Source: a virus
Virus record (IMG/VR): IMGVR_UViG_3300037452_000138
Span: 1-62,509 of that record
DNA: 62,509 nucleotides
Direction: 5' to 3' (one strand)
In this document: positions 3,567-47,244 of the stretch, one piece after another
How the letters are laid out: each line of letters starts with the position of its first letter
How positions within the stretch are numbered: the first letter of the stretch is position 1
Position numbers and translations under genes: made by a program
Notes under the pieces: model-generated
What the model saw: only the letters and a program-made list of their open reading frames with translations
Databases searched by the model: none
Told to the model about the DNA's origin: nothing

Positions 3567-3615
3567 TTCGCTTACTCCGAATAGCATTAATATATATGTA
3601 TTACGGAGTTGTCAA

Positions 3616-5226
3616 GTGATCGAAGCTCCCCAACCACAGGGCGATCAGCCCACCCAGTATCTTCCGGCAGGTCCGGCCGATCCACTGATATTCGAGGCGT
3701 TTGAGGGCATCAACACCGCGACGACCAGGCCGGGCGTGGATGACAAGCAGTCGCCATGGCTCGACGGGTTCATGCCGCTCGGCCCCGGGCGAAACCTGCG
3801 CACCATGTGGGGCGTTGGCCCGGCGTTGTTCACGCCTCCTGACGGCATTTCGCATGTATCGTTTTTTGATTTTTTCAATATCGGCACGACGCCGTACATG
3901 CTCGTGGTAACTAATTTCGGCGCTATCTACGCCGTTAACACCAACACCGGCGTATCTAATTTGATCGCCGTCGGAGGCACTATATCGAACCCATCGCGCA
4001 GCACTGTAGGACTTGCACAATATGGCTCCAAGTATGTTCTGATCATTGCATTCCAGACCAACGGCTATTTTGCATGGGACGGCACCACGTTCTATTCCCC
4101 TGGCGGTGCGCCCTTGGCAGGCAACCAGTTGCCTCTCGGTATCGCAGGCACTGCGATCGAGATTTACGCCGGTCGTGTATGGATTGCCGAAGGGCCTACC
4201 ATTACGTACAGCGCTCCCGGTTCGGTAACTGATTTCTCGTCTGCTAACGGTGGCGGCAACTTCACTTCGTCCGATAGTTTCTTGCGCGTCGGATTTACCC
4301 AATTGAAGCAAACCAACGGCTTCCTTTATTTGATCGCCGACTCGTCGATCAATTACATCTCGGGAGTTCAGACATCCGGATCGCCGCCGGTCACGACGTT
4401 CACCAACCAGAACGCCGATCCGGAAGTCGGTTCGGCGTGGGCTTCGACCGTCGATGTGTTCAGCCGCAATATTCTGTTCGCAAACGCCTTTGGCGTACAT
4501 GTGTCGTATGGTGGCGCGGTTACCAAGATCAGTGAAGCCCTGGACGGCATTTACAACACGGTGCCGAATTTCGGTAACATCACGCCTTCGGCGGGCAAGG
4601 CGATCATATTCGGCAAGAAATGCTGGGTGGTATTGCTGCCCATCATCGATCCGATCAAGGCGCAACAGGTCAACAAACTCCTGCTTTGGAACGGCAAAAT
4701 ATGGTGGGCGTCCGAGCAGGATGTGCCTCTGATTTATATCCAGCACCAGGAAATCAAGTCGATTATTAGCTGCTACGGAACCGACGGCAGTTCGATTTAT
4801 CCGTTGTTTGCCCGACCATCTACGGCATTCCAGAAAACCGCACAGAGCAAATTGTGGGACAAGCCGGGCGGCTACCAGCTGACGAAATTCGTAACGCGGC
4901 TGTGGGGCATCGTCCAGTTTTACAGCGGATTAAGTCCGACGATCAACGTGTCGATCGACAATGAGACGGGGTCAAACACTAATCCGACGATAGTGGTTCC
5001 GAAGGTGATTTCGTGGGTCAACAATTCCGGACAGATCGTGGCATGGCTCAATAATCTCGGCGCGGCGATCCAGTGGCAGTCCAACGGCGGAGGGTACTCG
5101 GTGCTTGCCCCCGATGCTGTCGCACAAAATGGCGCCCTGACGGGGTTCACCATCTCGACAAACGCCGCAGACATGGCCATCGTGTCGATGATGATCAAGG
5201 CCGAGATCGCCGGGTATCGAGGGTAG
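3616..5226 (+). CDS. Tail hub / DNA-stabilisation-like protein (P22 gp10-like)
   Basis: A 536-residue protein from GTG 3616, six bases after a CGGAGTT ribosome site. It is beta-rich with repeated short blades (for example VWIAEGPTITYSAPG, LYLIADSSINYISG, ILFANAFGVHVSYGG), typical of the beta-propeller-like hub proteins that plug the portal in short-tailed phages. An early segment (FEGINTATTRPGVDDKQ) resembles the conserved start of such proteins. It follows the connector-like pair across an HNH insertion and precedes the tail genes. Confidence 0.75.
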   Translation: MIEAPQPQGDQPTQYLPAGPADPLIFEAFEGINTATTRPGVDDKQSPWLDGFMPLGPGRNLRTMWGVGPALFTPPDGISHVSFFDFFNIGTTPYMLVVTNFGAIYAVNTNTGVSNLIAVGGTISNPSRSTVGLAQYGSKYVLIIAFQTNGYFAWDGTTFYSPGGAPLAGNQLPLGIAGTAIEIYAGRVWIAEGPTITYSAPGSVTDFSSANGGGNFTSSDSFLRVGFTQLKQTNGFLYLIADSSINYISGVQTSGSPPVTTFTNQNADPEVGSAWASTVDVFSRNILFANAFGVHVSYGGAVTKISEALDGIYNTVPNFGNITPSAGKAIIFGKKCWVVLLPIIDPIKAQQVNKLLLWNGKIWWASEQDVPLIYIQHQEIKSIISCYGTDGSSIYPLFARPSTAFQKTAQSKLWDKPGGYQLTKFVTRLWGIVQFYSGLSPTINVSIDNETGSNTNPTIVVPKVISWVNNSGQIVAWLNNLGAAIQWQSNGGGYSVLAPDAVAQNGALTGFTISTNAADMAIVSMMIKAEIAGYRG

Positions 5227-5229: not shown

Positions 5230-6000
5230 ATGGCTTTCAGCATTACCCAGTTTCAGAACAGTCCGGGTCCGGATCAGTTGTCGGCGCTTGACAACAATTT
5301 CACGACGCTGAGTGCGCAGGCCCCGATCCCTTGCGGCGTGTCGGGCACCAATACGCTGGTGCTGACGCAGAATGCCGCTGGCCTCGTGCCGACCGTTACG
5401 ATAGCGGCTTATACGCAAGGCATGTCGTTTTCCGGCATAGCGTCCGCGACAAATACCGGACCGGTGACGGCGAATGTCGGCACTGCCGGTGCGCTGAATG
5501 TTTACAAGGATACGCCGTCAGGGCCGCAGGTGTTGTCCGGCAGCGAGATCGTCATCGGCAACGCCTTCACCATGGTCTACGATCCGGCGTTGAACAGCGG
5601 CGCCGGCGGCTTCCATTTGGTGTCGACCACGGCGCAGTGGAATACACGCATCAATCCGTCGGCAATTCAGGTCAACGGCAATGCCACGATAACGAACCTG
5701 TTGTCGGGCGGGGTGAGCGTCACGTTCAACGCCACGGCGGGCTGGTCGTCGCAGGATCAGTCATTCACGCTGACCGGTCTGCCCCCGAACATCCCGCTCG
5801 TCGGCGATTTCGTTCAGGTGACCCCGCCGTCGCTGGCCGCCGTCGGCGTCGATTTTTCCGCCATGGTTACGGCGGTGGGGTCGCTCAGTTCGGTAGCGTC
5901 GGTTGCAACCGTCAATATCCGCCTGCTGAACGCGGCCTCGGCGTCGCTGGCGTCGAACAGCGGGCTGTACCGGTGGGCAGCGTGGAGGACGGTGCCGTGA
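5230..6000 (+). CDS. Tail-fibre/needle-like structural protein
   Basis: 256 residues, poor in charge and rich in Thr, Ser, Ala, Gly and Val. The N-terminus SITQFQNSPGPDQLSALDNN is helical, followed by repetitive beta-type sequence and a C-terminus YRWAAWRTVP. It starts three bases after the tail-hub gene and overlaps the next gene by four bases (GTGA). Likely a minor tail component; the family is not recognised. Confidence 0.75.
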   Translation: MAFSITQFQNSPGPDQLSALDNNFTTLSAQAPIPCGVSGTNTLVLTQNAAGLVPTVTIAAYTQGMSFSGIASATNTGPVTANVGTAGALNVYKDTPSGPQVLSGSEIVIGNAFTMVYDPALNSGAGGFHLVSTTAQWNTRINPSAIQVNGNATITNLLSGGVSVTFNATAGWSSQDQSFTLTGLPPNIPLVGDFVQVTPPSLAAVGVDFSAMVTAVGSLSSVASVATVNIRLLNAASASLASNSGLYRWAAWRTVP

Positions 6001-7360: not shown

Positions 7361-8677
7361 ATGGGCGATTTGGTCGGAATCGGCATCGATGCTTTAGCCA
7401 GCATATTCAGCAGTGGTGCGGGTGATGCAGCGGCGGGGCTAGGTACTGCCGCGGCGGATGTCGGTGCTGGCGCGGCCGGCGGGGGGATTGCCGATATCGT
7501 GGGTACCGGTGCAGGACTGGCTGGCGGTGCGACGGGGTTGGAAGGTACCCTGGCCAGCGCCGGCGGGCTCGGGCTGGCCGATGCTGCAGGAGCCGGGGGA
7601 TTGGGAGCCTTGGGTACTGCGGCTGATTTCCTGGCCGCCCCAGCGGCATCCGGATTGAGTGCCGCGGCCCTAACGCCCGGTATTTCGGGCGCTGCGGCGG
7701 ACACTGCGCTGACCAGCGCAGCCGATACCGGGCTCGCCAGCGGTGTCAGCGGCATTACCGGCTCGCCGTCGATCTCCAGTTTAGCGGGCGATCCCAGTGC
7801 TTTCCCCGGGGTGTCTTCGTCCTCCCTGTCGCCGAACGTCGCCAATGCGAACGCGGCTGCCCCAGGGTCTTCGGTGTTCAACACCGGCACCTCACCTGTG
7901 GCTGGCGTGAACCCTGCGGGAACGCCCAGCGTCAATCCGGGGGGAGCCAGTGCTGCGGGTGTATCGGCGCCCAGCGGCGTGACTGCCCCGACCGATGCGA
8001 CCGCCGCAGGCGTGCCCGGGAATGCTGCCGGTGGCGGGTCGCCTACCGGTACGCCGGCCGGCGGTTCAACCAGTATTTCCGATATGCTGAGCAATGCTGG
8101 CTCGAAAACCATGGATTCACTGACCAACAATCCCCTCGGCGTTGCGCTGGGAGCGGGCGGGCTCGGCTACAACATTTTAAAGGGTCAGCAGCAGACAAAG
8201 AACCAGAATGCGCTGTCGGCGGATGCCGCGCAGGCGACGGCGAACAGTAACAAGCTGACGGCGAGCGGCACCGATTTGCAGAAGTACCTGACGGACGGCA
8301 CCTTGCCGGCGAATTATCAGAAGATCGTCGATCAGTCGATCCAGGACGCCAAGACCACGGCGATCTCGAACGCAGCGCAGCAAGGGCTGCCGACCGATCC
8401 GACGCAGAACACGGCGCTGGCCGCCACGCTGGCCAAGATCGACGCTTCGAGGGCCGGCATGCAGGCGCAGGTAGCGCAGACCCTGTTCTCGTCAGGCAGC
8501 TCGCTGGTTAGTGCAGGCCAGTCGGCAGCTGGATTGTCCGGGAATCTCTACCAGACCCTGGTGCAGAACGACACCGCGCAGGCGGCGAACACCGGCAAGG
8601 CGATCGCCACGCTGGCGTCGGCGCTGAATGGCAAGTCGTCGGCGAATATCAACGGCACCAACGTCACGATCGGGTAA
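7361..8677 (+). CDS. Ala/Gly/Ser-rich internal virion-like protein
   Basis: 438 residues after a TAGGAG ribosome site. The first 270 are extremely rich in Ala, Gly, Ser, Thr and Pro, with GAGAAGGG and GGSPTGTPAGG runs. The last third is helical and charged (QQQTKNQNALSADAAQATAN, then NAAQQGLPTDPTQNTALAAT). It is the first of three consecutive large, low-complexity virion-type genes, the usual position of ejection proteins in short-tailed phages. Role inferred from composition and context. Confidence 0.72.
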   Translation: MGDLVGIGIDALASIFSSGAGDAAAGLGTAAADVGAGAAGGGIADIVGTGAGLAGGATGLEGTLASAGGLGLADAAGAGGLGALGTAADFLAAPAASGLSAAALTPGISGAAADTALTSAADTGLASGVSGITGSPSISSLAGDPSAFPGVSSSSLSPNVANANAAAPGSSVFNTGTSPVAGVNPAGTPSVNPGGASAAGVSAPSGVTAPTDATAAGVPGNAAGGGSPTGTPAGGSTSISDMLSNAGSKTMDSLTNNPLGVALGAGGLGYNILKGQQQTKNQNALSADAAQATANSNKLTASGTDLQKYLTDGTLPANYQKIVDQSIQDAKTTAISNAAQQGLPTDPTQNTALAATLAKIDASRAGMQAQVAQTLFSSGSSLVSAGQSAAGLSGNLYQTLVQNDTAQAANTGKAIATLASALNGKSSANINGTNVTIG

Positions 8678-8680
8678 CGC

Positions 8681-10378
8681 ATGGCCGACACGCAGCCGCA
8701 GGACACCGGGCAGTCGTCACCCGCGATCGCCGATCTGGCGGGCAGCGACGACAAGTCGATGTCCGGACTGGTGTCGAGCCTGACCGAGTTGCAGCGCAAG
8801 AAGGTCGGAAGCGATACCAAGCTCGAGGGCGAGTTCAACGTCGAGTCCGCGCAGGATCGCGCCCGCCGCGAACAGGCGTTCAAGGCGGAAGGTGTGGCGG
8901 CGTCCGAGATGCCGAAGGCATGGGACGCCGACAAGGAGCACAAGAAGTGGGAGACCAACCCGATCGAGGGGTTCGGGTCGGCCGGCGGCCTGTTCGCGAT
9001 GGTGGCGTCGGCCTTCACCAAGGCCCCGATGGAGAACGCCATCAACGGCATGGCGGGCGCGATCAACTCGATCAAGGAAGGCAACGAGGCTGGTTACACG
9101 CGGGCTTACGATGCGTTCAAGGAGAACGTGAAGCTGGCCGACCAGCGTTTCAAGACCCAGCACGAGCTTTACAACGACGCGCTGTCGCTCGGCACCGCCG
9201 ACATGGCGGCCTCGCAGGCCAAATTTCGCAACGCGGCAACCAAGTTCGGCGACAGCCAGATGCTGATGCTGGCCGAGCACGGCATGATCAAGGAAATCTA
9301 CGAGCTTCAGTCGGCGCGGGCGACAGCCAATGAGCAGATGATGAAGGCTGCCGACGCCATTGACCTGCATACCGTGCAAAAGGCCGCCGTCAACGCGATC
9401 AAGGCCAACCCGCCGGCGACCGGCGACCCCGTGCAGGACAAGATGATGCTGGCCGCGCAAATCCAGCGGGTGTACGACGCCAACGGCAAGTATGGCACCG
9501 CCGAGCAGGAGGCGGTCGGCCGGTACATGCAGGCCAATATGCAAAAGAGCCCGCAGGAGATCGCCGACGGGCTGGCCGAGATACACCAGAAATTCAGCGT
9601 CAAGGCGCCGAACATCCAGGGCTATCAGGAGGCACGCCAGGCTTACATGGATGCCCATGACGGTGCGATCCCGCCGGACGAGGATGCAAAATTGCTGCAG
9701 CAGTTCGGGCTGACCTACCGGCCGCCGGGGGCCACCGGCTCGGGCGGCGGGGCCTCGCTGACCAACGAGCGCGTCATCAACCGCGATGCCGAGGCGCACA
9801 AGCAGCAGATGGCCAAGGAGCATCCGGACTGGGACGAGGCCAAGCTGGAAGCCGACCGCGACAAGTATGTCAAGGAGCGCAAGATCGCGACCACCGCACC
9901 GACGGCAACCAATCTCGACACGATCCGCGGCAAGCAGGACCGCATCACCAACATGGATCACACCATCGACGAGGTCGAGGCGCTGCTGAAGAAGCACAAT
10001 GCGCTGACCGGTCTGGGTGGCAAGATCACCCGTCCGGCGGAAGTCGTCGGCAACATCTTCGGATCGAACGAGACCGACCGCAAGCAGTTCGAGCGTTACG
10101 TGGCAGAGTTGCAGGAGTGGGCACCGGCGGCTTTGAACGATCGCAACGGGCGTCCGCTGTCGTCGGAAGCGTCGAAAATCCAGACCATCATCGCAGGGCT
10201 TAACCTTGGAGACACGACCGCCAATACCGCTCGCGCCTATGCCGAGTTGCGCCCGCTTCTCAAGACGATCAAACAGCAGCTGGAGGCGCGCGGTGCGGGC
10301 GGGTCATCGCCGCCACCCGCGAAGTCGGAAGATACCGGCAAGGATGCCCCGTGGCTCCGGGATCCGGTGAAGCCGTGA
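8681..10378 (+). CDS. Internal virion / ejection protein candidate
   Basis: 565 residues, three bases after the preceding gene. It is largely alpha-helical and charged with long heptad-like segments (around residues 120-330 and 430-540) and a short Gly-rich turn (TGSGGGASL). A hydrophobic segment (GLFAMVASAF) occurs near residue 110. The stop overlaps the next start as GTGA. No enzyme motif is visible. Probably an internal head protein released with DNA. Confidence 0.72.
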   Translation: MADTQPQDTGQSSPAIADLAGSDDKSMSGLVSSLTELQRKKVGSDTKLEGEFNVESAQDRARREQAFKAEGVAASEMPKAWDADKEHKKWETNPIEGFGSAGGLFAMVASAFTKAPMENAINGMAGAINSIKEGNEAGYTRAYDAFKENVKLADQRFKTQHELYNDALSLGTADMAASQAKFRNAATKFGDSQMLMLAEHGMIKEIYELQSARATANEQMMKAADAIDLHTVQKAAVNAIKANPPATGDPVQDKMMLAAQIQRVYDANGKYGTAEQEAVGRYMQANMQKSPQEIADGLAEIHQKFSVKAPNIQGYQEARQAYMDAHDGAIPPDEDAKLLQQFGLTYRPPGATGSGGGASLTNERVINRDAEAHKQQMAKEHPDWDEAKLEADRDKYVKERKIATTAPTATNLDTIRGKQDRITNMDHTIDEVEALLKKHNALTGLGGKITRPAEVVGNIFGSNETDRKQFERYVAELQEWAPAALNDRNGRPLSSEASKIQTIIAGLNLGDTTANTARAYAELRPLLKTIKQQLEARGAGGSSPPPAKSEDTGKDAPWLRDPVKP

Positions 10379-13300
10379 GTGAATTAGGGCTCGACACCGA
10401 AAGCATGGCGTCCGGCGATCCCGGCGGTGGAGCCGCGCTCGATCTTGGCGAGCAGACCCTCGAAAGCAAGAACTATCCGAAGGTCGCGAATGAGAACGAT
10501 TGGCGGGCGTTGCCGCATGGAGCGACCTACCTTGATCCCGAAGGCAAGCAGCGCTTCAAGCCTATTCGCAATAAGGACGATTATCTCGGACTTCCGGAAG
10601 GGGCGGAATACGCCGATCCGGAAGGCAATGTTCGGACAAAGCCGAAATACGAGGGCATCGACTTCACCCCGCAGGCCTTGTTCGACATGGCGCATTCCGA
10701 CAAGGGGCGGAAGAAGGCGCTTGAAAAATACTACCCCGGCAAGGTCCGCGACGACCCGCAAGGCGGGTTTTTTATCGAGGACGACGGCGGCAAGCTGCGC
10801 AAGCCAGGCCGTGGAGCAAGTTCTGTCGGCGGCTTCCTCGCTTCGGAAACTGCTCCCTCCATACTGGCCGGTCTCGGCTCAATGGCGGGCGGGGCGGCGG
10901 GCACGGCCGTTGCTCCCGGCGTGGGCACGGCCGCAGGAGGCGCTGGGGGTGCAGCCCTTGGCGGCTATGTCGGATCGAAATTCAACGACACGATCTCGCA
11001 ACTGGCGGGTGTTTATGACGACGAGGGCGCCGATACGGCGGCAATGACCAGTGCCGCGTTTTCTGCTGTCGGTGATGTCGGTGGCCGGGCGCTGTCGGCA
11101 ATCCCGGCGGTTGCGAAAGGAACCGGGCAGCTGGCTGCTCGCGGCGCGGCAAAAACCGCCAACAAATTCCTCGGTACCGATCAGGAAGCACTGGAAACCG
11201 CGGTCCCGATCGCCGAGGCCGGGGAACAGCCGGGTAAAGGACCGCTAGGCTTATCCAAGGCTGGCACCGAGGTGTCGCCATCGGCGATTTTCAAATCGTC
11301 ACCGCATTTGACCAACGTCGCCGAAATCCTCGCGCAGAAATTCGACTCGTCCGACACCTATCTGATGCACGCCGAACGCTTCATGGATCAACGGGCCAAG
11401 GATATCCTCGCGCACAAGGATATCGGTGCCATCGTCGAAAGCATCGTCCATCCCAAAGCGGCGGTGCCGACGGAGGAAACCGGCTGGCTTCTCAAACGGT
11501 CGGCGGAAGCCAAGGCGGTGCAGCAGTCGGCCGAGCACGACCGCGCGCTGGCCGACGCGCTGGCAAACCGCAAGGCTGCCGTCGAAGACAAGTACAAGCC
11601 GGATATCGAGAAGTACCGTCAGCGCAACGAGAGCGTCGTGGTCACCGCCGAGCAGGCAAAAAAATCCGCCGATGAACTGGTACAGCAGGGGTTCAAGGAC
11701 ATCGAGAAACAGGCCGATGACGCCTTCAAGGTTGCCAAGGTCGGGCATAACAGCGGTGACCTCTGGCGCACGGTAGCGGAGAGTTTTGTCAAGCTGCGGC
11801 GCTCGATCGGCATGCGGGCCGAGAAAATGTACGGCGATGCCGAGACCGCGTCAGGAGGGTTGGTACCACAGGGTTCGAACGGCTTGTCTCGTCCCGCCGA
11901 GCAACTGCTTTCCGAGTTGCCCGAGGGCTTCGAGTCGCTGCACCCGTCGATAGTTAAAAAACTGCGCGACATGGCGGGCGTAAAAGACCCGAAGACTGGT
12001 GAGTGGGTCAAGGAGCCCGCCGATGCGTCGTGGGTGCAACTGCACAACCTGCGCACTCAGATCAGGCAGGACATCAAGTGGAATGACCTGACCTCGGACG
12101 TACGCAACGGCACCCTTAAATTCCTTGATGGCAAGATCAACGAAGTACTGCATCCTATCGAGGACTCGGCGGCGCCGGAGATCAAGGAAGCCTCGCGACT
12201 TTTGAAGCTGGCCGATGGTTTTTACCGCGAAAACATGGGTCCGCTGAATGACCGTCAATTGCGGACGCTGGTAAAGGCGCTTGAGACCGGCGGCGTGCAG
12301 GCCGATCCCAAGGCGCTGCTGAAGGTAGCGATCAGGGACGGCAAGACCGAGACGGCCAACGTCATTAAGAAAACGGTCGGCCCGCAGGTGTGGGACGCCA
12401 TGCGCGCGGCTGACGTCAAGGAGATGCTGGCGCAGTCGCAACAGATCGGCACCAAGGCATACGACGGTGTCGCGTTCGCCAAGCAGATACTCGACCGCAA
12501 GAAGAACGGCGTGCTCGACGTGCTGCACGGCGATGCCGGGGCGGCCAGGCTCGAACAGCAGGCGGCTTATGTCGAGAAGCTGCGGGGCAAGCTGGAAATA
12601 GAACCTCGTCCGGGCGATACCGCCAACGATATCATCCTGCGCGCCCGCGCCGCGGCGGCGGATGCGGAGGCAAAGGCGGCGTCCGACCCGCTGAAGGCCA
12701 TGCAAAACGAGATGCGCAAGGTGGAAGCGGCAACCAAGAAGGAATTTGCCGCGCAGCAGGCCGAGCGTACCGCTGCCGACCCGCTGGCGTTCCTCAACAA
12801 CGCTACCGTCGGCGCCCACGCCGCCGTGGACAAGATACTCGGAAATCCCGACCTGATCGTGGCTGCCGCCCGCTCGTTCGCCGGCGGCGAGCAGTCGCCC
12901 GAATTCAAGCTGCTGCGACAGGCGTGGACCGAGCGATTCATGCGCGAGACGCTGGAACCGGGAGAAAAACTGGCGAAGGTGAGCCCCGAAATCCAGGAAC
13001 TGATGTTCCCGGGCGTCACGCTCGATGACATGCACATGCTGGCCAAGGAGATGAAGCTGCTGATGAGCGGGCATACCATGCGCGGCGAGGATACTGCTGG
13101 CGGCATGATGGCGCAGGCGGCGGTTGAACACCCGTTCGGGCAGATAACGGGACTGGGTAAGCTGGCAGGACCGATAAAAATCGCCCCCGGTGCCAATTTC
13201 GCCGCTAGAGCGGGGTTGACCGCTTTTTACAACACGATCCGTGGGGTTTTGACCTCCCCGTCGACTTTGAGATGGCTGCGGAAAGGGCTACAGTCCCGCG

Positions 13301-13431
13301 ACCCCGCGGAGCGTGAGGCAGCTCGCGAGGGGCTGAAGGCCGCGCTACAGCGCGGAGGGGCCATGGGAGCGGCCATGGGACAAGGCGTAGGGGACTGGAT
13401 GGAAGAACCTGGAGCAGGAACATCACAATGA
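10375..13431 (+). CDS. Very large internal virion / ejection protein (1018 aa)
   Basis: The GTG at 10375 overlaps the previous stop by four bases and is preferred over the GTG at 10351. Near the N-terminus, repeated short YLDPEG/YADPEG units occur around residues 52-85. A Gly/Ala-rich hydrophobic stretch (residues about 165-200) could insert in a membrane. The remaining part is mostly long charged helices and carries the GHNSGDLW motif common in rhizobial phage proteins. I see no lysozyme or transglycosylase active site. Size and position fit a DNA-ejection protein. Confidence 0.78.
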   Translation: MSELGLDTESMASGDPGGGAALDLGEQTLESKNYPKVANENDWRALPHGATYLDPEGKQRFKPIRNKDDYLGLPEGAEYADPEGNVRTKPKYEGIDFTPQALFDMAHSDKGRKKALEKYYPGKVRDDPQGGFFIEDDGGKLRKPGRGASSVGGFLASETAPSILAGLGSMAGGAAGTAVAPGVGTAAGGAGGAALGGYVGSKFNDTISQLAGVYDDEGADTAAMTSAAFSAVGDVGGRALSAIPAVAKGTGQLAARGAAKTANKFLGTDQEALETAVPIAEAGEQPGKGPLGLSKAGTEVSPSAIFKSSPHLTNVAEILAQKFDSSDTYLMHAERFMDQRAKDILAHKDIGAIVESIVHPKAAVPTEETGWLLKRSAEAKAVQQSAEHDRALADALANRKAAVEDKYKPDIEKYRQRNESVVVTAEQAKKSADELVQQGFKDIEKQADDAFKVAKVGHNSGDLWRTVAESFVKLRRSIGMRAEKMYGDAETASGGLVPQGSNGLSRPAEQLLSELPEGFESLHPSIVKKLRDMAGVKDPKTGEWVKEPADASWVQLHNLRTQIRQDIKWNDLTSDVRNGTLKFLDGKINEVLHPIEDSAAPEIKEASRLLKLADGFYRENMGPLNDRQLRTLVKALETGGVQADPKALLKVAIRDGKTETANVIKKTVGPQVWDAMRAADVKEMLAQSQQIGTKAYDGVAFAKQILDRKKNGVLDVLHGDAGAARLEQQAAYVEKLRGKLEIEPRPGDTANDIILRARAAAADAEAKAASDPLKAMQNEMRKVEAATKKEFAAQQAERTAADPLAFLNNATVGAHAAVDKILGNPDLIVAAARSFAGGEQSPEFKLLRQAWTERFMRETLEPGEKLAKVSPEIQELMFPGVTLDDMHMLAKEMKLLMSGHTMRGEDTAGGMMAQAAVEHPFGQITGLGKLAGPIKIAPGANFAARAGLTAFYNTIRGVLTSPSTLRWLRKGLQSRDPAEREAAREGLKAALQRGGAMGAAMGQGVGDWMEEPGAGTSQ

Positions 13432-13862: not shown

Positions 13863-14144
13863 ATGGCACAAACCAATCCGGGGTTCGAAGTGGTCGGCGG
13901 CACCGAGGCCGAGCCGAAGCCGCCCGTCGATAACGGCGTGGCCGTCGCCATGCTCCAGATAGGGCTGAAGGCACTCGGCCAGCGGGCGCTGACCGCGGCA
14001 GCCGACCTGTTCACCCTGATCACCTGCGTCGGTGCCTGGTGGCTGTGGCGCATGACCCCGGATCCCAACCCGCAGCAGATCGTCCACAACTCGATTTTCG
14101 CGTTGTTCGTGCTGGCGGCCAATTACATCGTGAGGCGGAAATGA
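13863..14144 (+). CDS. Two-span membrane protein, late operon
   Basis: 93 residues. A cytoplasmic-looking N-terminus is followed by two hydrophobic segments (DLFTLITCVGAWWLW and SIFALFVLAANYIV) and a basic C-terminus RRK. Its size and topology fit a holin-like or phage-exclusion-type protein, but it lies upstream of the fibres rather than beside the amidase. The end overlaps the next ATG (ATGA). Confidence 0.72.
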   Translation: MAQTNPGFEVVGGTEAEPKPPVDNGVAVAMLQIGLKALGQRALTAAADLFTLITCVGAWWLWRMTPDPNPQQIVHNSIFALFVLAANYIVRRK

Positions 14145-15532
14145 AGCGATTTATCAAGCGCCTCGCGCTCGGTTTTATCCTCGCACTGCCGTGGATCGGG
14201 GCGGCGTCGGCGCAGCAGGTCAATATGTACTGCGTCGTCAATCCGGCCTCGCCGCCGTACCAGTGGACGCCTTGCCAAACTTCGTCACCATTACCGACGA
14301 CGTCAGTCTCCCTCAACGGCATCGCGCAGGGTGTTTCCGCTCCCGGCGCCGCGGCGCGCGTGGCGCAGGAACCCACACAGCTGTTCTGGGACGATTTCGG
14401 CACCGGCACGCTGGACACCACCGCGAAGTGGACATCGCCCACCACTGGCGGCGGGGGCAACGCAACCGCTGCTTCGAACGCGGTGGGTTTTACCGCACTC
14501 GGTTCGGGCACAACCGCCGGCGGATGGTCGCTTTTATCGTCGCAGTTCTCGTTTCCCGGTAAAAATCCCTCGTGGAATTTTTTCCAGGAGCAAAACAACT
14601 TCGAATTTCCGGTGTTGCTGAATGCCGTCAGGTTCTGGGGTTTTGCTACATTCCCGGCAGCGCCCACCGCTGCCGCCCCCTACGCTGACGCAGTCGGATT
14701 TGAACTCGGCACCGACGGGCATCTTCGCGCGGTGATGTCGGCCAGTGCGGGCTCGCTGGCCGCCGGCACCAAGACGGTCATCGCCGACTTGTCCGTCGCT
14801 TGTCTATCGGCAAACCCCTATGGCGGGCCGCTGGGCACGGGCACGACGACCTCGGGCTGCGCGTCCGGTTTGATCGGTAAAGTGGCCCAGCCGCAGGATA
14901 ATGGCGTCCACAAGTACATCATCTATTTCCGCGGCGACAACACTTACTGGGCGATCGACGGCATCGACAACATCGTCGCGTTCACCATCACCGGCGCTCC
15001 CGGACCGAACGTCAACACGCTGCCCGTCGCCCATGCGGCGATCGCCAATACCGGCACCGGACCTACCGGCACCGCACTTCTGACTGTTAACCAGACGACG
15101 GTTGGCGACACCGGGCGCAACGAGATCAGGATATGCGACCCGACCAACCCGTGGAGGTGTGCTGCCGTCAGTTCGGGCGGCGCATTGTCGGTCTCGGCGG
15201 TAACGACCGCCAACACGGCAGCCTCGGCGCTTGCCGCCAACCTCGTGGTCAACAACGCGGCTTCCAGCCTGTATTCATTCAACGTGTCGGCGGATTCCAC
15301 GCTGTCGGCCGCCGCGTGGTGGATCATGGTCTACAACGCCACGACGCCTCCCGTGGACGGCGCGGTCACGCCTGCGCGCTGCTACGCCATGGCTTCGGGC
15401 AGCACGAGCTTTTCCGCGGCATTTCCCACCGGGCTTCCTTTCGGTACCGGCATCGTTATCGGCGTCAGCACCACCGGCTGCTTTACCAAGACCGCTTCGA
15501 CCCACGCCTTTATCGCGGGGGATTTCAAATGA
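14141..15532 (+). CDS. Fibre-like protein with Sec signal peptide (1 of 3)
   Basis: 463 residues from the ATG in an ATGA overlap. The N-terminus KRFIKRLALGFILALPWIGA followed by ASAQQ is a textbook Sec signal peptide with an Ala-x-Ala cleavage site. The rest is beta-rich, with a lectin/jelly-roll-like central part (LFWDDFGTGTLDTTAKW, then GFELGTDGHLRAVM and YWAIDGIDN) and a repetitive Thr/Ala/Val C-terminus. It has several cysteines, which would suit an oxidising periplasm. Likely a receptor-binding or surface protein. A signal peptide on a cytoplasmically assembled tail part is unusual. Confidence 0.75.
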   Translation: MKRFIKRLALGFILALPWIGAASAQQVNMYCVVNPASPPYQWTPCQTSSPLPTTSVSLNGIAQGVSAPGAAARVAQEPTQLFWDDFGTGTLDTTAKWTSPTTGGGGNATAASNAVGFTALGSGTTAGGWSLLSSQFSFPGKNPSWNFFQEQNNFEFPVLLNAVRFWGFATFPAAPTAAAPYADAVGFELGTDGHLRAVMSASAGSLAAGTKTVIADLSVACLSANPYGGPLGTGTTTSGCASGLIGKVAQPQDNGVHKYIIYFRGDNTYWAIDGIDNIVAFTITGAPGPNVNTLPVAHAAIANTGTGPTGTALLTVNQTTVGDTGRNEIRICDPTNPWRCAAVSSGGALSVSAVTTANTAASALAANLVVNNAASSLYSFNVSADSTLSAAAWWIMVYNATTPPVDGAVTPARCYAMASGSTSFSAAFPTGLPFGTGIVIGVSTTGCFTKTASTHAFIAGDFK

Positions 15533-16644
15533 TCCGGTTGATCACGGGCCTGCTGCTTCTTTTTGCGGGTGCGGCTGAAGCGCAGCAGGGGCAGGCGGTC
15601 GGACCCACTGCGCCCTGTTCGGCCTTCGGTACGGCGAGCGGCACCTGCGCGCAGGGTAATGACATCCGATTCGGTGTCATCACCGCGCAAGGTCGCCTGA
15701 CCCTGACCGCCAACACCCCGGTGATGACGGCGACGGCCTCCGCGCAAACCACCCTGCGATACGACTGCTACCTCGGCAACACCGTGCCCTACTTCAACGG
15801 CACGGTCGACACGCTCGACACCGTTGCATCGTGCGAGGTCACCGATGCGATGGTGTCGGCAGCCAGTGCGGGGCAAGTGGTCAACAACAACGTGTACGAC
15901 GTATGGTGGGTTACCGGCGGTGCGAATAAAATCTGCCTGGCCATGTCGGCAGCGGTTGGCGGCGGTGGTGGCTGGTCTGCCGATACCGGCGGTTCAAATA
16001 CGGTACGCGGCACCGGCTACACGCAGCTGGATCGTATAACCCGGCCTTACATCACCAATAAAAACTCGATTACCAACTGCTTCAACGGAGCCACTAACTA
16101 CGGTCCGGTAAGCGCTAATCAAGGCACTTACCTCGGGACGGTTTATGCCAGTGCTAACGGGCAGATCAGCTGGACACTGGGAGCTTCGGCATCAGGCGGC
16201 ACCGCTGCCGTGCTCGGTGTTTGGAATATGTACAACCGCGTGAATGTTTTTACGTCCGTAACCGATAGTGGAGCTGCCTATACCTACACCACGGCGACCA
16301 TACGGCAGGCGCGGGCCAGTGCGGGCAATCAGGTGACCTGTGTTACCGGACTGCAAGAAGATGCTTTTACCGCAACATATCAGGTCAATAACCATCCCGT
16401 GGCAGCTATCGCCGCAAATATGAAAATCGGCGTAGGGCTAGATACAACTTCCGCTTTTACGTCGCCATTTTGGACAACTACCTCAATGGCGGCTAATTCG
16501 GAAGCTGAAGGAGCCATGGCTTTTTTAACTTCAACTGCCATTGGATTGCATGTCATTTCCGCCAATGAAAACGGAGATGGTGTAAACGCTAACACCTTCG
16601 ACAACGACTCGCTGAACACTTTCAGCGTGAACCTGAGAATGTGA
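15529..16644 (+). CDS. Fibre-like protein with Sec signal peptide (2 of 3)
   Basis: 371 residues, coupled to the previous gene by ATGA. The signal peptide is IRLITGLLLLFAGAAEA followed by QQ. Near residue 55 begins a module GRLTLTANTPVMTATASAQT followed by a Tyr-rich segment and VPYFNGTVD. Such modules recur in rhizobial prophage surface proteins, as I recall. A later conserved stretch reads VLGVWNMYNRVNV. The next gene carries a diverged copy. Probably receptor-binding; at least six cysteines. Confidence 0.77.
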   Translation: MIRLITGLLLLFAGAAEAQQGQAVGPTAPCSAFGTASGTCAQGNDIRFGVITAQGRLTLTANTPVMTATASAQTTLRYDCYLGNTVPYFNGTVDTLDTVASCEVTDAMVSAASAGQVVNNNVYDVWWVTGGANKICLAMSAAVGGGGGWSADTGGSNTVRGTGYTQLDRITRPYITNKNSITNCFNGATNYGPVSANQGTYLGTVYASANGQISWTLGASASGGTAAVLGVWNMYNRVNVFTSVTDSGAAYTYTTATIRQARASAGNQVTCVTGLQEDAFTATYQVNNHPVAAIAANMKIGVGLDTTSAFTSPFWTTTSMAANSEAEGAMAFLTSTAIGLHVISANENGDGVNANTFDNDSLNTFSVNLRM

Positions 16645-19343
16645 CGATGAAAAAAATCCTTGCCCTGATCGCGCTGCTTCTTGCTCCCTCGGCGCTTGCC
16701 CAGAACGTCCAGTATTCCGGCACGATTACCCGCAACCAGATCCCGGTATGGGTCACCAACGGGGTGATCGGCGCCGGCACCTCGGCCGCCGACAGCCCGA
16801 TCTCGTCGATCGGCGTGACCAACGAGGGCGGCGCCGGGTTCTGCGTGTCGAGCCAGCGGCAGACCGCGGCGGGGCGCAACCAGCTTTGCCTGTCGGCCTC
16901 GACCACTGGCCCCGCGACGATCAGTGTGCAGAACTATGGCACCGCGGCCCCGCAACCCCTCCAGTACGTCATCAACGGCACCGTCGTCACAATCCCGACT
17001 GGCGGCGGCTCGTTCATTTTCGGCAACCCGCCCTTCACAACCGGCGACGTGCCGTGCTTCGTCAATACCTCTGGCCTCTTGCAGGACTGCGGGCTGGCAG
17101 TTAACAGCGGCACCGTCACGACGGGCGTTTGGAACGGCACCGCTGTGGCCGTCGGATTTGGCGGCACGGGCAGCAACAATGCTGCGGGAGCCCGGACCAA
17201 TCTCGGCCTCCTGTCGATGGCGACCCAGGCTTCCAACAGCGTGTCGATCACTGGCGGCGCAATTACCGGCATGGCCTCGCCGGTCGCTGCTTCCGACGTC
17301 GCCACTAAATCCTACGTCGATGCCTCGTCCAGCGGCCTCAACATCCTGGCTCCCAGCAGGCTGGCTACGGCAGCTGCCCTCCCGAACACCCCGACCTATT
17401 CCAACGGCACCGCCGGCGTCGGCGCGACGCTGACTGCCGGTTCGAACACGACGTTGACCGTGGACGGCACCGTTGCGAATCTCAACGACGTCGTTCTTGT
17501 CAAGAACCAGGTATCGACTTTCCAGAACGGTATCTATCAGGTCACGACCGCGGGCGGCGGCGTGCCGTGGGTGCTGACCCGGGCTACCTACTTCGACACC
17601 GCCGCGAAGATGAAGGTGGGCTCGTACACCTTCATCACTGCCGGCTCGGTCAACATCAACTCGTCATACACCCTGCAATCGACCGTGGTAACGGTCGGCA
17701 CCGACGCCCTGACTTTCGTGCAATTTTCGGCCGGCAATGCTGGCACGGTGACTAGTGCTACGATTGCGGCGGGCACCGGCATCTCGGTCACCGGTACCTG
17801 CACGATCACCACCAGCGGCACCTGCACCATCGCCAATACCGGCGTTACCTCGGTCACGGGCGGTGTCGGATTGCTGGGCGGGGCCATCACCACAACCGGG
17901 ACGCTGTCGGTCGATCCGACCATCATCAACTCGCAGGGCGGACGGCTGACACTGGTGTCCGGGCAGCCTTATATGACCGCCGATGCCGTCGGCGCGCAGA
18001 CGATCTATTATGCGCCCGACACTGGGCAATTCGTTCCGGTCTATAGCGGTAGTGCGTGGACGCTCAACCAGTTCACGTCAGGCAACACCGACCAGGTTGG
18101 TTTGTCACTGGCGTTGGGCGGGTCCGCCAGCTGGGCCGCCAACAGCATCTTCGACGTGTTCGCCGTGATTAACAGCGGATCGCTGGTGCTCGCCACCCGT
18201 GCATGGGACGCGAGCATGCTGCCGACTACGTCGCAGATCGCCAACAACGCAACGATCACGACCGGCACCACGCCGACGGCGTGGACCAATCCCAATAATG
18301 CTTTTGACGGCATCGTGGTGAAAAGCAGCACGACGGCGGCCAATATCCAGCCGGGTAATGCCGGAACCGCCAACTGCCTGGGACAGAATTTCGGGTCGCC
18401 GCAGACGGTTTCGCAGGTGGTGATAACGGCGCCGACCGATAAACAGCTAGTCGGTAGCGCCAGCACGACGGACGTCCGCACCTACGCATCTTCGGACGGC
18501 ACTAATTTTTATCTGATGTCGGTTAACTGGGTTGACGATCTCTCGATAGGTGCTGGTTACACACTCCCGATCCCCGTCGGCACCCAGCTTCCGTTCCAAT
18601 ACTGGCGGACATGCATCGATAGCAACTTCAAAGGGGGCGGTCCGTATAATGTGTGGGTCGCGCAAATCCAGTACAACACCACGGCTGCGCCTTCCACGCG
18701 CCGCCTGACGCATTTCGGCGGCATCCTGGTCAACGATGCGTCGATGACAGCACGTGTGTCATCGAGCACAACGATTACCACTGGACAATACCAGGGCACT
18801 TATCTGGGCTCATTCCAGACCGATGCTGCCTCTGCCGGGCAAGTGTCGGCTTATTTCTCCTACGGTCCGAGCCGGGTGTTCAACATCTGGAATGCCTACC
18901 GACAAACCGACATCACGCTACAAGCCGGTTTGGTCGCAGACACCAACACGTCTTACGTGCTTACCAACCAACTGTTCAGTCCGTGCGAGAACTCGACATT
19001 CAGCGTCGTGCCGTTCCTCGGCCTGGCGCAGCAGTCGATTACGGCACAGGTACAGCGGGCGGTGGCGCTGAATTCTATTACGCCCAATGCTTCCGCGGCT
19101 TATGAAGTAGGCATCGGAGTGGACACCATCACGGCCTTATCAGGGACCGACGCCAGCACTAATTTCGATGTGCTCAACATTGTTCACGGGCTTCCGATCC
19201 CATCGAACGTGGTGCTTCCTCCGTACTTCGGCACTCACACGCTGACTTGCATCGAACGCGCCGGGAACGGCTCTGCCGGCGGCACGGTCACGTTGTTCAC
19301 CGGGGCAAGAAACACTTTCCTGCAAGTGAAATATAAGGGGTAA
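16641..19343 (+). CDS. Large fibre/receptor-binding-like protein with Sec signal peptide (3 of 3)
   Basis: 900 residues from GTG 16641 in a GTGA overlap; ATG 16647 would give a tidier signal peptide (KKILALIALLLAPSALA, then QN). An N-terminal repetitive part is followed by a segment with the pattern DVATKSYVDA, seen in many tail fibres, and a long Thr/Gly/Val beta-helix-like region. From about residue 430 it carries the module GRLTLVSGQPYMTADAVGAQ shared with the preceding protein. The extreme C-terminus is basic. Likely the main host-recognition protein. Confidence 0.8.
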   Translation: MTMKKILALIALLLAPSALAQNVQYSGTITRNQIPVWVTNGVIGAGTSAADSPISSIGVTNEGGAGFCVSSQRQTAAGRNQLCLSASTTGPATISVQNYGTAAPQPLQYVINGTVVTIPTGGGSFIFGNPPFTTGDVPCFVNTSGLLQDCGLAVNSGTVTTGVWNGTAVAVGFGGTGSNNAAGARTNLGLLSMATQASNSVSITGGAITGMASPVAASDVATKSYVDASSSGLNILAPSRLATAAALPNTPTYSNGTAGVGATLTAGSNTTLTVDGTVANLNDVVLVKNQVSTFQNGIYQVTTAGGGVPWVLTRATYFDTAAKMKVGSYTFITAGSVNINSSYTLQSTVVTVGTDALTFVQFSAGNAGTVTSATIAAGTGISVTGTCTITTSGTCTIANTGVTSVTGGVGLLGGAITTTGTLSVDPTIINSQGGRLTLVSGQPYMTADAVGAQTIYYAPDTGQFVPVYSGSAWTLNQFTSGNTDQVGLSLALGGSASWAANSIFDVFAVINSGSLVLATRAWDASMLPTTSQIANNATITTGTTPTAWTNPNNAFDGIVVKSSTTAANIQPGNAGTANCLGQNFGSPQTVSQVVITAPTDKQLVGSASTTDVRTYASSDGTNFYLMSVNWVDDLSIGAGYTLPIPVGTQLPFQYWRTCIDSNFKGGGPYNVWVAQIQYNTTAAPSTRRLTHFGGILVNDASMTARVSSSTTITTGQYQGTYLGSFQTDAASAGQVSAYFSYGPSRVFNIWNAYRQTDITLQAGLVADTNTSYVLTNQLFSPCENSTFSVVPFLGLAQQSITAQVQRAVALNSITPNASAAYEVGIGVDTITALSGTDASTNFDVLNIVHGLPIPSNVVLPPYFGTHTLTCIERAGNGSAGGTVTLFTGARNTFLQVKYKG

Positions 19344-19348: not shown

Positions 19349-20104
19349 ATGACTTTTTCTCTCTTGTGGCTTCCCGGCATCCTGCGAGCCGCCGGGCTCA
19401 TCGTGAACGAAGTGCCGGGCTGGCAGAACCGCGGCCATGGTGACGAGGGCAAGGTGCTTGGCGTGTTGTGTCATCACACCTGCGGGCCGCTACATGGCGA
19501 TCTGCCCGATCTCAACGTGCTCATTGACGGCCGCCCCGATCTGGGCGGTCCGCTCTGCAATCTTGGCCTTGGCCGTTCCGGGCAGTACTGGATGATCGCG
19601 GCCGGCAAGGGCTGGCACGCCGGCGGCGGCAACTGGCAGGGCATCACCGACGGCAACGCACATCTGATCGGAATCGAGGCCGAGAACATCGGCACCAGTG
19701 ACCGGCAAGGCAACCCGCTCGAGCCGTGGCCGGCGGTGCAGATGGATGCCTACAAGCGGGGCTGCGCGGCCATCCTTCGGCACATCGGGGCGCTGCCAAT
19801 CATGTGCGCCGGGCACAAGGAGTACGCCCTGCCGCACGGCCGCAAGGACGATCCGAATTTCGACATGGTGGCCTTCAGGCGCGACGTGGCCGCCTTGATG
19901 GCGCTGCCTGCTGGCGTCTCACCAGTTGCAGTGCCTTCCCCCGTTGCGACGCCTTCCTCGGTCGCCCCACCCGTGGTTTCCAGCCCACCGCCTGCGTCCC
20001 CGCCGCACACACCCCTTCCCAACACACCGACAAAGCCCGCACAAACCGACGTGGATACCGCCTTCGACGCCGCCGCGTCCGATACACCCGGCAGCACAGG
20101 CTAG
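19349..20104 (+). CDS. N-acetylmuramoyl-L-alanine amidase endolysin (Amidase_2 type)
   Basis: 251 residues behind an AAGGGG ribosome site. The catalytic domain covers about residues 25-185. LCHHTCG supplies a zinc ligand (His42 or His43), AGHKEYALPHGRKDDP supplies His156 and Asp168, and IGIEAENIG is the usual conserved strand. The C-terminal 65 residues are a Pro/Ser/Thr-rich tail without a recognisable binding repeat. There is no signal peptide, so release would need the holin-like protein encoded next. Hydrolyses the amide bond between MurNAc and the peptide stem. Confidence 0.93.
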   Translation: MTFSLLWLPGILRAAGLIVNEVPGWQNRGHGDEGKVLGVLCHHTCGPLHGDLPDLNVLIDGRPDLGGPLCNLGLGRSGQYWMIAAGKGWHAGGGNWQGITDGNAHLIGIEAENIGTSDRQGNPLEPWPAVQMDAYKRGCAAILRHIGALPIMCAGHKEYALPHGRKDDPNFDMVAFRRDVAALMALPAGVSPVAVPSPVATPSSVAPPVVSSPPPASPPHTPLPNTPTKPAQTDVDTAFDAAASDTPGSTG

Positions 20105-20154: not shown

Positions 20155-20520
20155 ATGGCGTTATCCACCGAGACTGTTGGAAGGCTGCTCGCCTCCGGGC
20201 GCAATTACGTCAGCATCGTCGTCGGTTTCGTCGGTGGTATCGGCCTGATGTCGGCCTCCCAGCAGCAGGGGCTGAAAGACGCCTTCAACCAGATATTCGA
20301 CGGGCTCAGCCAGGTCGTCCATGGCGCGACGTCGCTATGGCAAATCCTGATCGTGGCGTTCCCGGTCATCGGCGTGGTCATGGCCCAGCTCGCCAGCCGC
20401 AGCGCCAAGGTCACCAGCCAGGCCGCCGCCGTGGTCGCTGCGGTCAAAGACCCCAATACCCCGATCCCCGCCGAAGCGAAAACATCCATCGTCACCGCCG
20501 CCAACGAGGTCACCAAATGA
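20155..20520 (+). CDS. Holin-like two-span membrane protein
   Basis: 121 residues after a GGAGA ribosome site. Two hydrophobic segments (YVSIVVGFVGGIGLMSA and LWQILIVAFPVIGVVMAQLA) are separated by a short polar loop, with a polar C-terminus. Position directly after the amidase and before a lipoprotein makes it the best holin candidate. Not a family I can name with certainty. Confidence 0.7.
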   Translation: MALSTETVGRLLASGRNYVSIVVGFVGGIGLMSASQQQGLKDAFNQIFDGLSQVVHGATSLWQILIVAFPVIGVVMAQLASRSAKVTSQAAAVVAAVKDPNTPIPAEAKTSIVTAANEVTK

Positions 20521-20891
20521 AAAAGCTCCTGCTGATTATCCCGCTCGCGCTGTCGCTCGGCGCCTGCGCCTCCCTGCAAACCGCGTGGTCGGTCGTCACC
20601 GGGGTCTCGGTGTCGCCAACCCAGATACTCGTGGCCGCCAATGCCTTCGATGCCGGCGAGGCCAGCGCCACCCAGTACCTGCTGTTTTGCAAGGCCAACC
20701 CGGCCCAGTCGGTCTGTGCCCTGAAAACTCGGCAGGCCGTGGTTTCCGCGGTGCGCGCCGGCCGCGTCACCCGCAACCAGCTCGAGCCGTACATCGTCTC
20801 GAACACCGCTGGTCCCGCCGCCCTCTACAACGCCCTGGTGGCGACGGTCACCGCCCTCAAGTCCCAGATCCCCGCAGGAGCCGCCCAATGA
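20517..20891 (+). CDS. Lipoprotein in lysis cassette (possible outer-membrane spanin)
   Basis: 124 residues, ATGA-coupled to the holin-like gene. KKLLLIIPLALSLGAC is a lipoprotein signal with lipobox LGAC (Cys at residue 17). The mature part is helical with two more cysteines. Context suggests an outer-membrane spanin or lysis accessory, although it lacks the usual Pro-rich linker. Confidence 0.72.
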   Translation: MKKLLLIIPLALSLGACASLQTAWSVVTGVSVSPTQILVAANAFDAGEASATQYLLFCKANPAQSVCALKTRQAVVSAVRAGRVTRNQLEPYIVSNTAGPAALYNALVATVTALKSQIPAGAAQ

Positions 20892-22230: not shown

Positions 22231-22851
22231 ATGAAGTATCTGGTTTCCGCACTGATCCTGCTCGGCCTTGTTTCCTCGGCCGAAGCCAAGTCCCGACATC
22301 ATGCTGCTTCCGGCCTGCATCCGATGTGCAACATCACGATGCCCTGCGAGATCCCGGCGACGGTCGCAGCGGTCAGGGAGACCCAGCGCGTGGCGCGCGG
22401 CAAGTACGTGGCCCGGCAGATGGGGTTCGGCGGGGTCGCTCCGCTCAAACACCGGAAGGAGGCGATGCATCATTCCACCCGATTACGACAGGGCCTTTAT
22501 AACGCACGACCCCGGCCTCACACCCAGCAGGCCGGGGCCACGCGCGTTGCTTCGCAGATCGTAGCACACCCGGCGGGGTGTCCGTCGCGGGCGTTTTGCG
22601 GTTGCGGCGCTGCGGTCCGCCTGCTGGGGGCACCGGTTCGCGCGTTGTGGCTGGCCGCCAACTGGTTTCGGTTCCCCCGTGTAGCGCCGGCTCCTGACAC
22701 GGCCGGCGTCCGCCGGCATCACGTCATCGCCTTGATCGAGCATCGGCACGGCAGCGTGTGGCTGGTCTACGACGCCAACAGCGGCGGCCACGCCACCCGC
22801 ATCCACGAGGTCGATATTTCCCGGTATACGATCGTCAATCCGAGGACTTAG
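22231..22851 (+). CDS. Secreted cysteine-containing protein of rhizobial type
   Basis: 206 residues behind AGGAG. KYLVSALILLGLVSSAEA is a Sec signal peptide. The mature N-terminus GLHPMCNITMPC and the C-terminal domain around residues 112-205 (AGCPSRAFCGCGAAVRLLG, then LVYDANSGG) match secreted proteins I recall as widespread in Bradyrhizobium genomes and prophages. It is the last gene of the late operon and overlaps the opposing gene end by 17 bases. Function unknown; possibly a periplasmic enzyme of the papain/NlpC type because of the Cys-Gly-Cys element, but this is not proven. Confidence 0.78.
   Translation: MKYLVSALILLGLVSSAEAKSRHHAASGLHPMCNITMPCEIPATVAAVRETQRVARGKYVARQMGFGGVAPLKHRKEAMHHSTRLRQGLYNARPRPHTQQAGATRVASQIVAHPAGCPSRAFCGCGAAVRLLGAPVRALWLAANWFRFPRVAPAPDTAGVRRHHVIALIEHRHGSVWLVYDANSGGHATRIHEVDISRYTIVNPRT
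22510..22537. terminator. Perfect 9-bp hairpin inside the last late gene
   Basis: CCCCGGCCT and AGGCCGGGG are separated by ten bases, forming a strong stem without a following T run. It lies about 300 bases before the convergent junction of the late and early operons, so it may impede transcription. It lies within coding sequence, so it may have no regulatory role. Confidence 0.35.
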
Positions 22852-23545
22852 GCTTGCCGCCGTCAGGGCGGTCCAGCGTTTTAGCGGCGCGACCGCGTAG
22901 CTGCCCCGAAAATTCGCGGATCATGTCGCCAACCGTGTCGCCGTGGCCTGTAGCCAAACCGTGTTCGGCTGCGAGTTCAAGGCAGGCATTGCTCGCGTCA
23001 TCCAACTCGGAGATTTGCGCTGCGCTCTTATCGGAGGACGGTTGTGCTGGCGGGAGGGCGGCGAGGGCCGACCTCGCTAAATTCAATGCGCCCGCGAGAT
23101 GATTTAGAACCATCTCGTCATAAGAATTTCCCGCGACCAGAAAGAAATATTCCGCAGGAGGCTTCCCAAACACGCCGCACAATTTTCCTTCACACAGTCC
23201 GGTGACCGGCGTTTGAACAGAAAACTGATTAACGAAGTTCTCCAGCGCCTCCCTCACTCCCGTCCCCGCCGTCAGGGCAGGGGCGGCAGCCGGCAGAGAT
23301 TCAATGCCTGCAATTGCCCGCTCATACGCTTCTTCATGTTCCGGCAAGAGCGTGATCGCCAAATTTAATCGGACGGAATTCAGATCAAGCGTTCGCGTCA
23401 ACTGATTGGAGGCGGTGCGGAGCTTACCGAGCACGTCAAGCATCACGCCTCGACGGAATGGCCAATCCGAATTGTAGATGCTGTACTCCCGAATGAGAGT
23501 TTCTAATTCGTCCGCCAGTTCCAACATCTTCTTCGTGCCTGTCAT
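22835..23545 (-). CDS. Helical hypothetical protein, end of early operon
   Basis: 236 residues. The ATG at 23545 overlaps the preceding stop (ATGA) and is chosen over the upstream TTG. It is largely helical and acidic, with an internal hydrophobic patch (KPPAEYFFLVAGNSYDEMVL). No motif recognised. It is the most distal gene of the leftward operon. Confidence 0.72.
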   Translation of the reverse strand: MTGTKKMLELADELETLIREYSIYNSDWPFRRGVMLDVLGKLRTASNQLTRTLDLNSVRLNLAITLLPEHEEAYERAIAGIESLPAAAPALTAGTGVREALENFVNQFSVQTPVTGLCEGKLCGVFGKPPAEYFFLVAGNSYDEMVLNHLAGALNLARSALAALPPAQPSSDKSAAQISELDDASNACLELAAEHGLATGHGDTVGDMIREFSGQLRGRAAKTLDRPDGGKPKSSD

Positions 23546-23871
23546 GATGTACTGTCCGGTGTTTTTTCGCGAGGCATAAACCAACAGCCGGGAATGTGTA
23601 AATTTTCGAGGCTAGAATCATGAATGATGCAGATGTGGCAGCGATCGTCCAATGACGGCGCCACCCAGCCCTTTTTTCCTCTAAACTTTTGCCACACGAT
23701 TTCATCGCCTTCGAATTTTACTTCCTCGCATGGAATTGGATGGCAGTCTTTGCCTCCGCAACAAGCTGATGGATACCAATCGTGCGCAGATGCATTTATA
23801 GCTATTGAGCTAACGATGACCGCGCAGGTTATAGCTATGGCCCAGTCGTAAAGGGATTTAGAGAAATTCAT
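23542..23871 (-). CDS. Secreted cysteine/histidine-rich small protein
   Basis: 109 residues. It has an N-terminal signal peptide (WAIAITCAVIVSSIAINASA) and a mature part beginning HDWYPSACCGGKDCHPI, with further CHICII and CW pairs. This Cys/His pattern recurs in small periplasmic proteins of rhizobia and their phages, as I recall, and may bind metal. An early-operon secreted protein suggests action on the infected cell envelope. Its stop overlaps the next start (ATGA). Confidence 0.75.
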   Translation of the reverse strand: MNFSKSLYDWAIAITCAVIVSSIAINASAHDWYPSACCGGKDCHPIPCEEVKFEGDEIVWQKFRGKKGWVAPSLDDRCHICIIHDSSLENLHIPGCWFMPREKTPDSTS

Positions 23872-47238: not shown

Positions 47239-47244
47239 TCTGCC

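Follow-up and report, generated by a model that had tools for sequence, protein, structure and literature searches.

Candidate exported fibre-type proteins encoded by three consecutive genes in the late region of a soil phage

The window analyzed here, i.e., the whole stretch of DNA under study, is a 62.5-kb virus contig of a soil phage with 63 called genes. Three consecutive genes, termed A, B and C, are located between the tail and ejection-type genes and the endolysin gene, in the late tail and lysis region (Table 1). At ATGA and GTGA junctions, they share a few bases with their neighbors and therefore resemble one late cassette. Pfam and PHROG searches yielded no family match for the holin-like protein encoded directly upstream of A. 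Judging from its position and sequence motif, the 256-aa protein encoded further upstream is a possible cytoplasmic proximal adaptor.

Table 1. Position and composition of the features discussed. Signal peptide scores are those of the rule-based scorer described in the text, cysteines were counted on the translations, and a hyphen marks the predicted cleavage site.
Feature	Position	Strand	Description
Structural genes			start with portal-/capsid-type genes near the right end of the window
256-aa protein	5230-6000	+	tail-fibre-like N-terminus (LSALDNNFTTL), no signal peptide; directly after 3616-5226
Tail and ejection-type genes	7361-13431		
Holin-like protein	13863-14144	+	93 aa, with a membrane-spanning stretch; directly 5' of A; assigned by position and sequence
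Gene A	14141-15532	+	463 aa, ATG 14141; signal peptide followed by a spacer, a conserved beta-rich domain (WDDF...RFWGF...DG.LRA...DLS) and a C-terminal domain that varies; 8 Cys in mature part
Signal peptide of A	14141-14212	+	24 aa, MKRFIKRLALGFILALPWIGAASA-QQ; cleavage ASA-QQ; score 11.1
Gene B	15529-16644	+	371 aa, ATG 15529, ATGA overlap with the stop codon of A; 7 Cys in mature part; signal peptide joined by a short linker to a C-terminal module (residues ~54-371) common to the Pam5 tail spike
Signal peptide of B	15529-15582	+	18 aa, MIRLITGLLLLFAGAAEA-QQ; cleavage AEA-QQ; score 9.8
B module	15691-16641	+	GRLTL...WNMYNRV...; alignment A1, tree
Gene C	16641-19343	+	900 aa from GTG 16641 or 898 aa from ATG 16647; 10 Cys in mature part; signal peptide, stalk, virion-protein segment, weak C-terminal copy of the B module
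Signal peptide of C	16647-16700	+	18 aa from ATG 16647, MKKILALIALLLAPSALA-QN; cleavage ALA-QN; score 11.3-11.5
C segment	17226-17915	+	residues 194-423; homologous to PDB 9efk 'orf22' and to tail-fibre/head-decoration families
Endolysin	19349-20104	+	Amidase_2; directly 3' of C; Pfam PF01510 1.1e-12, phrog_880 3e-40
Small membrane proteins and one lipoprotein			3' of the endolysin gene

The sequence-only reading of this region had proposed that the three genes in a row encode proteins with Sec signal peptides. This was borne out: the open reading frames are found at the stated places, the signal peptides are of the Sec/signal peptidase I type and the scores lie well above the null. Scores were obtained with a purpose-made, rule-based scorer, which considers the charge of the n-region, the hydrophobicity of the h-region and the -3/-1 rule and for which a cut-off of 8.5 was used. 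Shuffled N-termini reached the observed score in 0 of 2000 cases for A and in 3 of 2000 cases each for B and C; the cut-off itself is attained by 1-2% of the shuffled N-termini of A, B and C and by 3 of 213 internal-Met starts of window proteins. Five of the 63 called genes reach the cut-off, namely A, B, C, the lipoprotein gene at 20517 and the gene for a secreted-type protein at 22231, and all of them are found in one late block of 11 genes, the chance of which is around 0.003 with the choice of the block allowed for. By the same rule-based scoring, n-, h- and c-regions and an AxA site, kept across divergence, mark A, B and C as Sec/signal peptidase I-type sequences. A lipobox cysteine at position +1 (signal peptidase II) is absent; this position is occupied by Q in all three proteins, in contrast to the protein encoded at 20517 (LGAC). 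Reading the translations by eye revealed polar C-termini and no C-terminal membrane anchor, and no peptidoglycan hydrolase domain was detected in A, B or C in Pfam and PHROG searches. The presence of several cysteines in each protein, also part of the earlier proposal, holds for all three mature parts, and this lead opened the way to the best test, which a related fibre family provided (see below).

Further genes of the window deserve mention. The lipoprotein (20517-20891; MKKLLLIIPLALSLGAC) is encoded in the lysis region, and its place would fit an outer-membrane spanin or another late lipoprotein. Signal-peptide-like N-termini are also present in the products of 22231-22851 (+) and 23542-23871 (-), which are candidate secreted proteins without a match in Pfam or PHROG; the latter is small and Cys-rich (SACCGGKDCHPIPC). 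By eye, three open reading frames are HNH-type endonuclease-like (59656-60741 (-), 43685-44380 (+) and 2922-3587 (-)) and resemble inserted homing endonucleases; two of them run opposite to the late genes, amid the structural genes. Glycosyltransferase-like and NAD-dependent epimerase-like genes, likewise assigned by eye, are located at 44362-48589 and possibly serve surface-polysaccharide modification; they are followed by a resolvase-like gene at 48843.

For gene A, no relative was found among GenBank phages, and Pfam and PHROG searches gave no significant match. Relatives with 46-61% identity in the matched parts are encoded at the uncultured-phage loci L016, L094/095, L096/097, L098 and L099. 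Every distinct homologous locus bears a signal peptide cut at AxA-Q, with A24-Q25 being invariant in the family alignment (A4), and leaders and spacers differ; the -3/-1 site is thus conserved while the remaining leader drifts. A possible leaderless start of A at Met29 was rejected, since the relatives do not have it. The two cysteines of the central domain are retained as a pair, including in L016 and L094, where a long insertion separates them. An AlphaFold model of A reached a pLDDT of 42, which is too poor for naming the fold. A homologue of known virion location was not found, and A is filed only as a predicted companion exported protein. In two of the related loci (L097:6870-11679 and L098:6794-9955), three to four consecutive signal peptide genes, all with cysteines, are flanked by a capsid-like gene on one side and later structural genes on the other, a common place of head-decoration genes.

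Gene B gave nothing usable in Pfam and PHROG searches. In the sister phage L015, two h-region residues of its signal peptide differ and the signal peptide class is kept. The C-terminal module of B is attached to many unrelated N-terminal regions, i.e., it is shuffled between fibres, and its distinct closed open reading frames comprise 19 with a signal peptide, 45 without and 4 unclear cases. The mature cysteine content amounts to 1.31% in the first group versus 0.63% in the second; the coupling of cysteines and signal peptide in this family is significant only when relatedness is ignored (p 9e-5), as independent pairs are too few to correct for it. Ten signal peptide-bearing sequences including B form one starred clade of the module tree, in which Cys 80, 102, 136 and 184 are conserved, and further ones are found elsewhere; the best tree contains five changes of the signal peptide state, two of which are forced by starred branches. 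The structural model of B has a pLDDT of 77, and a fold search matched its C-terminal half to the TNF/C1q-like lectins BC2L-C (N-terminal domain) and PLTL with a TM-score on the target of approximately 0.65, a fold-level likeness at low identity. Cry-toxin matches, which ranked at the top of this search, are spurious (rmsd near 19, TM below 0.2).

The segment of C comprising residues 194-423 is homologous to orf22 of PDB entry 9efk (E 1.1e-26), which is present in 18 chains in that entry. The entry itself names no function; 18 copies would fit six trimers. The segment also matches phrog_2647 (1.4e-14), phrog_30390 (2.8e-18) and tail-fibre and head-decoration segments of cultured phages. At locus L003 (6456-8963), one gene fuses a C-like N-terminal region with a signal peptide to the C-terminal module of B, and B and C therefore look like variants of one fibre kind. 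The earlier description of all three products as fibre-like thus stands for B and C by homology; for A it extends no further than position and company.

Evidence on how signal peptides arise in front of fibres comes from a collar tail-fibre family (phrog_12796/phrog_38625), which includes gp31 of Burkholderia phage Bcep781 and gp31 of Edwardsiella phage GF-2. The collar domain was found in 132 GenBank phage records, and the window encodes no member. Ten cultured members were examined, and they possess neither a signal peptide nor a cysteine pair. In two uncultured phages (L005, L006), the collar fibre, which precedes a signal peptide-bearing fibre and lies right 3' of the baseplate J/I-type genes, carries a signal peptide and two extra cysteines, whereas the corresponding gene of L004 and L007 lacks both. 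A scan of uncultured phages yielded 80 collar loci, from which duplicates were then removed. In a first count, the cysteine pair was present in 20 and absent in 4 proteins with a signal peptide, and of those without, 0 had the pair and 47 did not (Fisher 5e-14). After three leaders accepted by eye had been moved to the signal peptide group and two long branches had been left out, the pair was found in 20 of 27 versus 0 of 42 proteins (Fisher 8e-12). A careful tree, calculated with the cysteines masked, contains 10 changes of the signal peptide state (bootstrap 9-12), two of them forced by starred branches, and among 10 independent pairs on the best tree, the cysteine pair goes with the signal peptide in 5-6 and against it in none. 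Since support is weak deep in the collar tree, the coupling is best described as a strong association for which the phylogenetic control is modest.

The junction between leader and fibre is exact. In 33 of 40 collar proteins without a signal peptide, the initiator Met is located six residues before a P-x-K anchor, and in all 25 anchored proteins with a signal peptide, the leader ends exactly at this ancestral position (e.g., ...PLQA-MQQSDAPTK and ...PALA-LSQSSVPPK). The residue at -1 is A, G or S in 24 of these 25 proteins, and the mature part starts with M in 6 of them, with L in 13, with I in 4 and with another residue in 2. Signal peptides were therefore added precisely before complete fibres, and cleavage would restore the old N-terminus, which, as judged from fibres in general, would be the part that docks to the tail. 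Since the internal Met has been lost in most of these proteins, a retained leaderless form is argued against.

The signal peptides had been treated as a peculiarity of one phage, a view that no longer holds, as the trait recurs in phages of the podovirus and myovirus types and in Bradyrhizobium-family prophages. At loci L004 to L007, fibres with a signal peptide occupy the canonical fibre position 3' of baseplate J/I-type genes, and L009 encodes versions with a signal peptide of two tail genes that lack one in Pseudanabaena phage Pam5. Homologues with a signal peptide are also encoded by Bradyrhizobium sp. 190 (L020) and by other members of its family. One of these prophages (G215) carries baseplate genes, a collar fibre without a signal peptide and then two genes with signal-peptide-like leaders, one of which was recognized by eye; another one (G028) carries three signal peptide genes in series. 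The host of the phage studied here is likely an alphaproteobacterium. A tail spike of the pectate-lyase type (DGVTDDTAAIQ), encoded at L004:8968-10107, probably has a signal peptide and contains cysteines close to its first strands (VCDGVTDD...GTCRV); it possibly represents a further fibre family with such a coupling. Searches of cultured phages with the N-terminal domains of signal peptide-bearing proteins (tblastn) gave nothing or internal matches. The match to Rhizobium phage Paso is internal, and the annotation of the Paso fibre names a T7-type N-terminal domain; matches of the L028 N-terminal domain to Kagunavirus 'neck proteins' are short and were set aside. Circe gp063 (PMC13001222) was considered as a lead, and no link emerged.

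Taken together, export of A, B and C is well supported as a prediction from sequence: signal peptides are retained, they were gained repeatedly, the junction is exact and cysteines are paired in relatives, in agreement with the earlier suggestion that these proteins are exported. We consider it somewhat better than an even bet that A, B and C are produced with cleavable signal peptides, leave the cytoplasm, acquire disulfide bonds in the periplasm and become attached to virions at lysis. According to this model, they would be surface-binding subunits of the fibre or lectin type, which are translocated to the periplasm late in infection and trimmed by signal peptidase I. The mature proteins would fold and gain disulfide bonds there, and proximal tail parts lacking a signal peptide would be assembled in the cytoplasm as usual. 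Upon disruption of the inner membrane by holin and endolysin, the particles would mix with the periplasm, thereby allowing the subunits to join the virions. The sequence-only reading had listed acquisition at lysis next to decoys or exclusion, without choosing between them. We infer each of these steps, i.e., translocation, cleavage, disulfide formation and virion attachment. The phage of the window may in this way pair the 256-aa putative adaptor with exported distal parts. The 18 copies of the homologue of the C segment in a solved assembly support a role as virion part; however, the link between cysteines and signal peptide comes from the collar family, to which no gene of the window belongs, and a free periplasmic fibre would have to reach the tail before diffusing away.

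The main rival, particularly in the case of A and of phages with an additional fibre that lacks a signal peptide, is that the proteins are exported lectins, released or surface-bound, which never become part of the virion and act as decoys, in superinfection exclusion or as receptor masks against re-adsorption of the progeny to debris. The evidence for export fits this equally well, since export is the common core of both readings, and three signal peptide genes in series within a lytic cassette would suit it too. Furthermore, a collar fibre without a signal peptide precedes the signal peptide-bearing fibres in L004, L007 and the G215 prophage, so that those virions would still own a fibre, and the window has its possible adaptor without a signal peptide. 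However, the collar fibre at the canonical position is itself equipped with a signal peptide in L005 and L006, and the mature N-termini match those of virion fibres without a signal peptide exactly, which a free decoy would not need. Because this exported collar fibre holds the canonical locus and keeps the docking N-terminus, virion parts are preferred to decoys, which we regard as unlikely, yet as a serious contender. It is improbable that the N-terminal segment is a tolerated hydrophobic stretch or an uncleaved anchor within the particle, with no export taking place. Tail fibres are normally cytoplasmic, and the sequence-only reading had listed a tolerated signal among its options; however, the AxA-Q site is conserved in spite of leader divergence, leaders were acquired repeatedly and end exactly at the ancestral N-terminus, and they travel with a cysteine pair. 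At least as improbable, and in our view slightly more so, is lysogenic conversion, in which prophage-expressed genes would alter the host surface independently of virions: homologues with a signal peptide do occur in bacterial genomes, but the genes of the window lie in a late cassette reaching from the holin-like gene to the endolysin gene, with overlapping start and stop codons.

In a broader sense, we give an even chance to the proposal that a class of tailed phages builds its virion in two compartments and that a signal peptide was repeatedly added exactly before an existing fibre. Capsid and proximal tail would be assembled in the cytoplasm, and disulfide-bonded receptor-binding parts would take the Sec route and be added after the inner membrane fails; the phages of L097 and L098 perhaps export further outer-surface proteins as well. 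If fibres are exported, late assembly must accept periplasmic parts, receptor-binding proteins can gain stability from disulfides, and kin cells may become coated with free exported fibres. Fibre export would also alter the separation of phage proteins from bacterial secreted adhesins in metagenomes.

To our knowledge, virion proteins of tailed phages have been assumed to remain in the cytoplasm, and no report of a Sec signal peptide on a tailed-phage tail fibre was found in the open-access full-text literature. The adhesin pIII of the filamentous phage Ff is a receptor-binding virion protein with a Sec signal peptide, which acquires its disulfide bonds in the periplasm, remains anchored in the inner membrane and enters the particle there as the phage is extruded. 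By contrast, the C-termini of A, B and C are polar, and the phage that encodes them is a tailed one that lyses its host. The endolysin Lys44 of phage fOg44 possesses a true cleavable signal peptide and is exported via Sec before lysis (PMC6116005); A, B and C are also signal peptide-bearing late phage proteins, but lack a lytic domain. For target proteins of phage diversity-generating retroelements (DGR), Benler 2018 (PMC6199706) noted the lack of signal peptides and saw in this an argument that such surface-binding proteins originate from phages. The module of B is 35% identical to the tail spike Pam5_18 over residues 53-350, and L009 encodes homologues of the tail fibre Pam5_16 and of Pam5_18 in the same order; the Pam5 proteins have no signal peptide and no cysteines at the matching places. 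Another parallel is the collar tail fibre of myoviruses: the members of uncultured phages with a signal peptide share the domain and the gene position after the baseplate genes with the cultured members examined, which differ by having neither signal peptide nor cysteine pair. The collar family thereby supplies matched orthologues with and without a signal peptide, and the question of fibre export is therefore directly testable.
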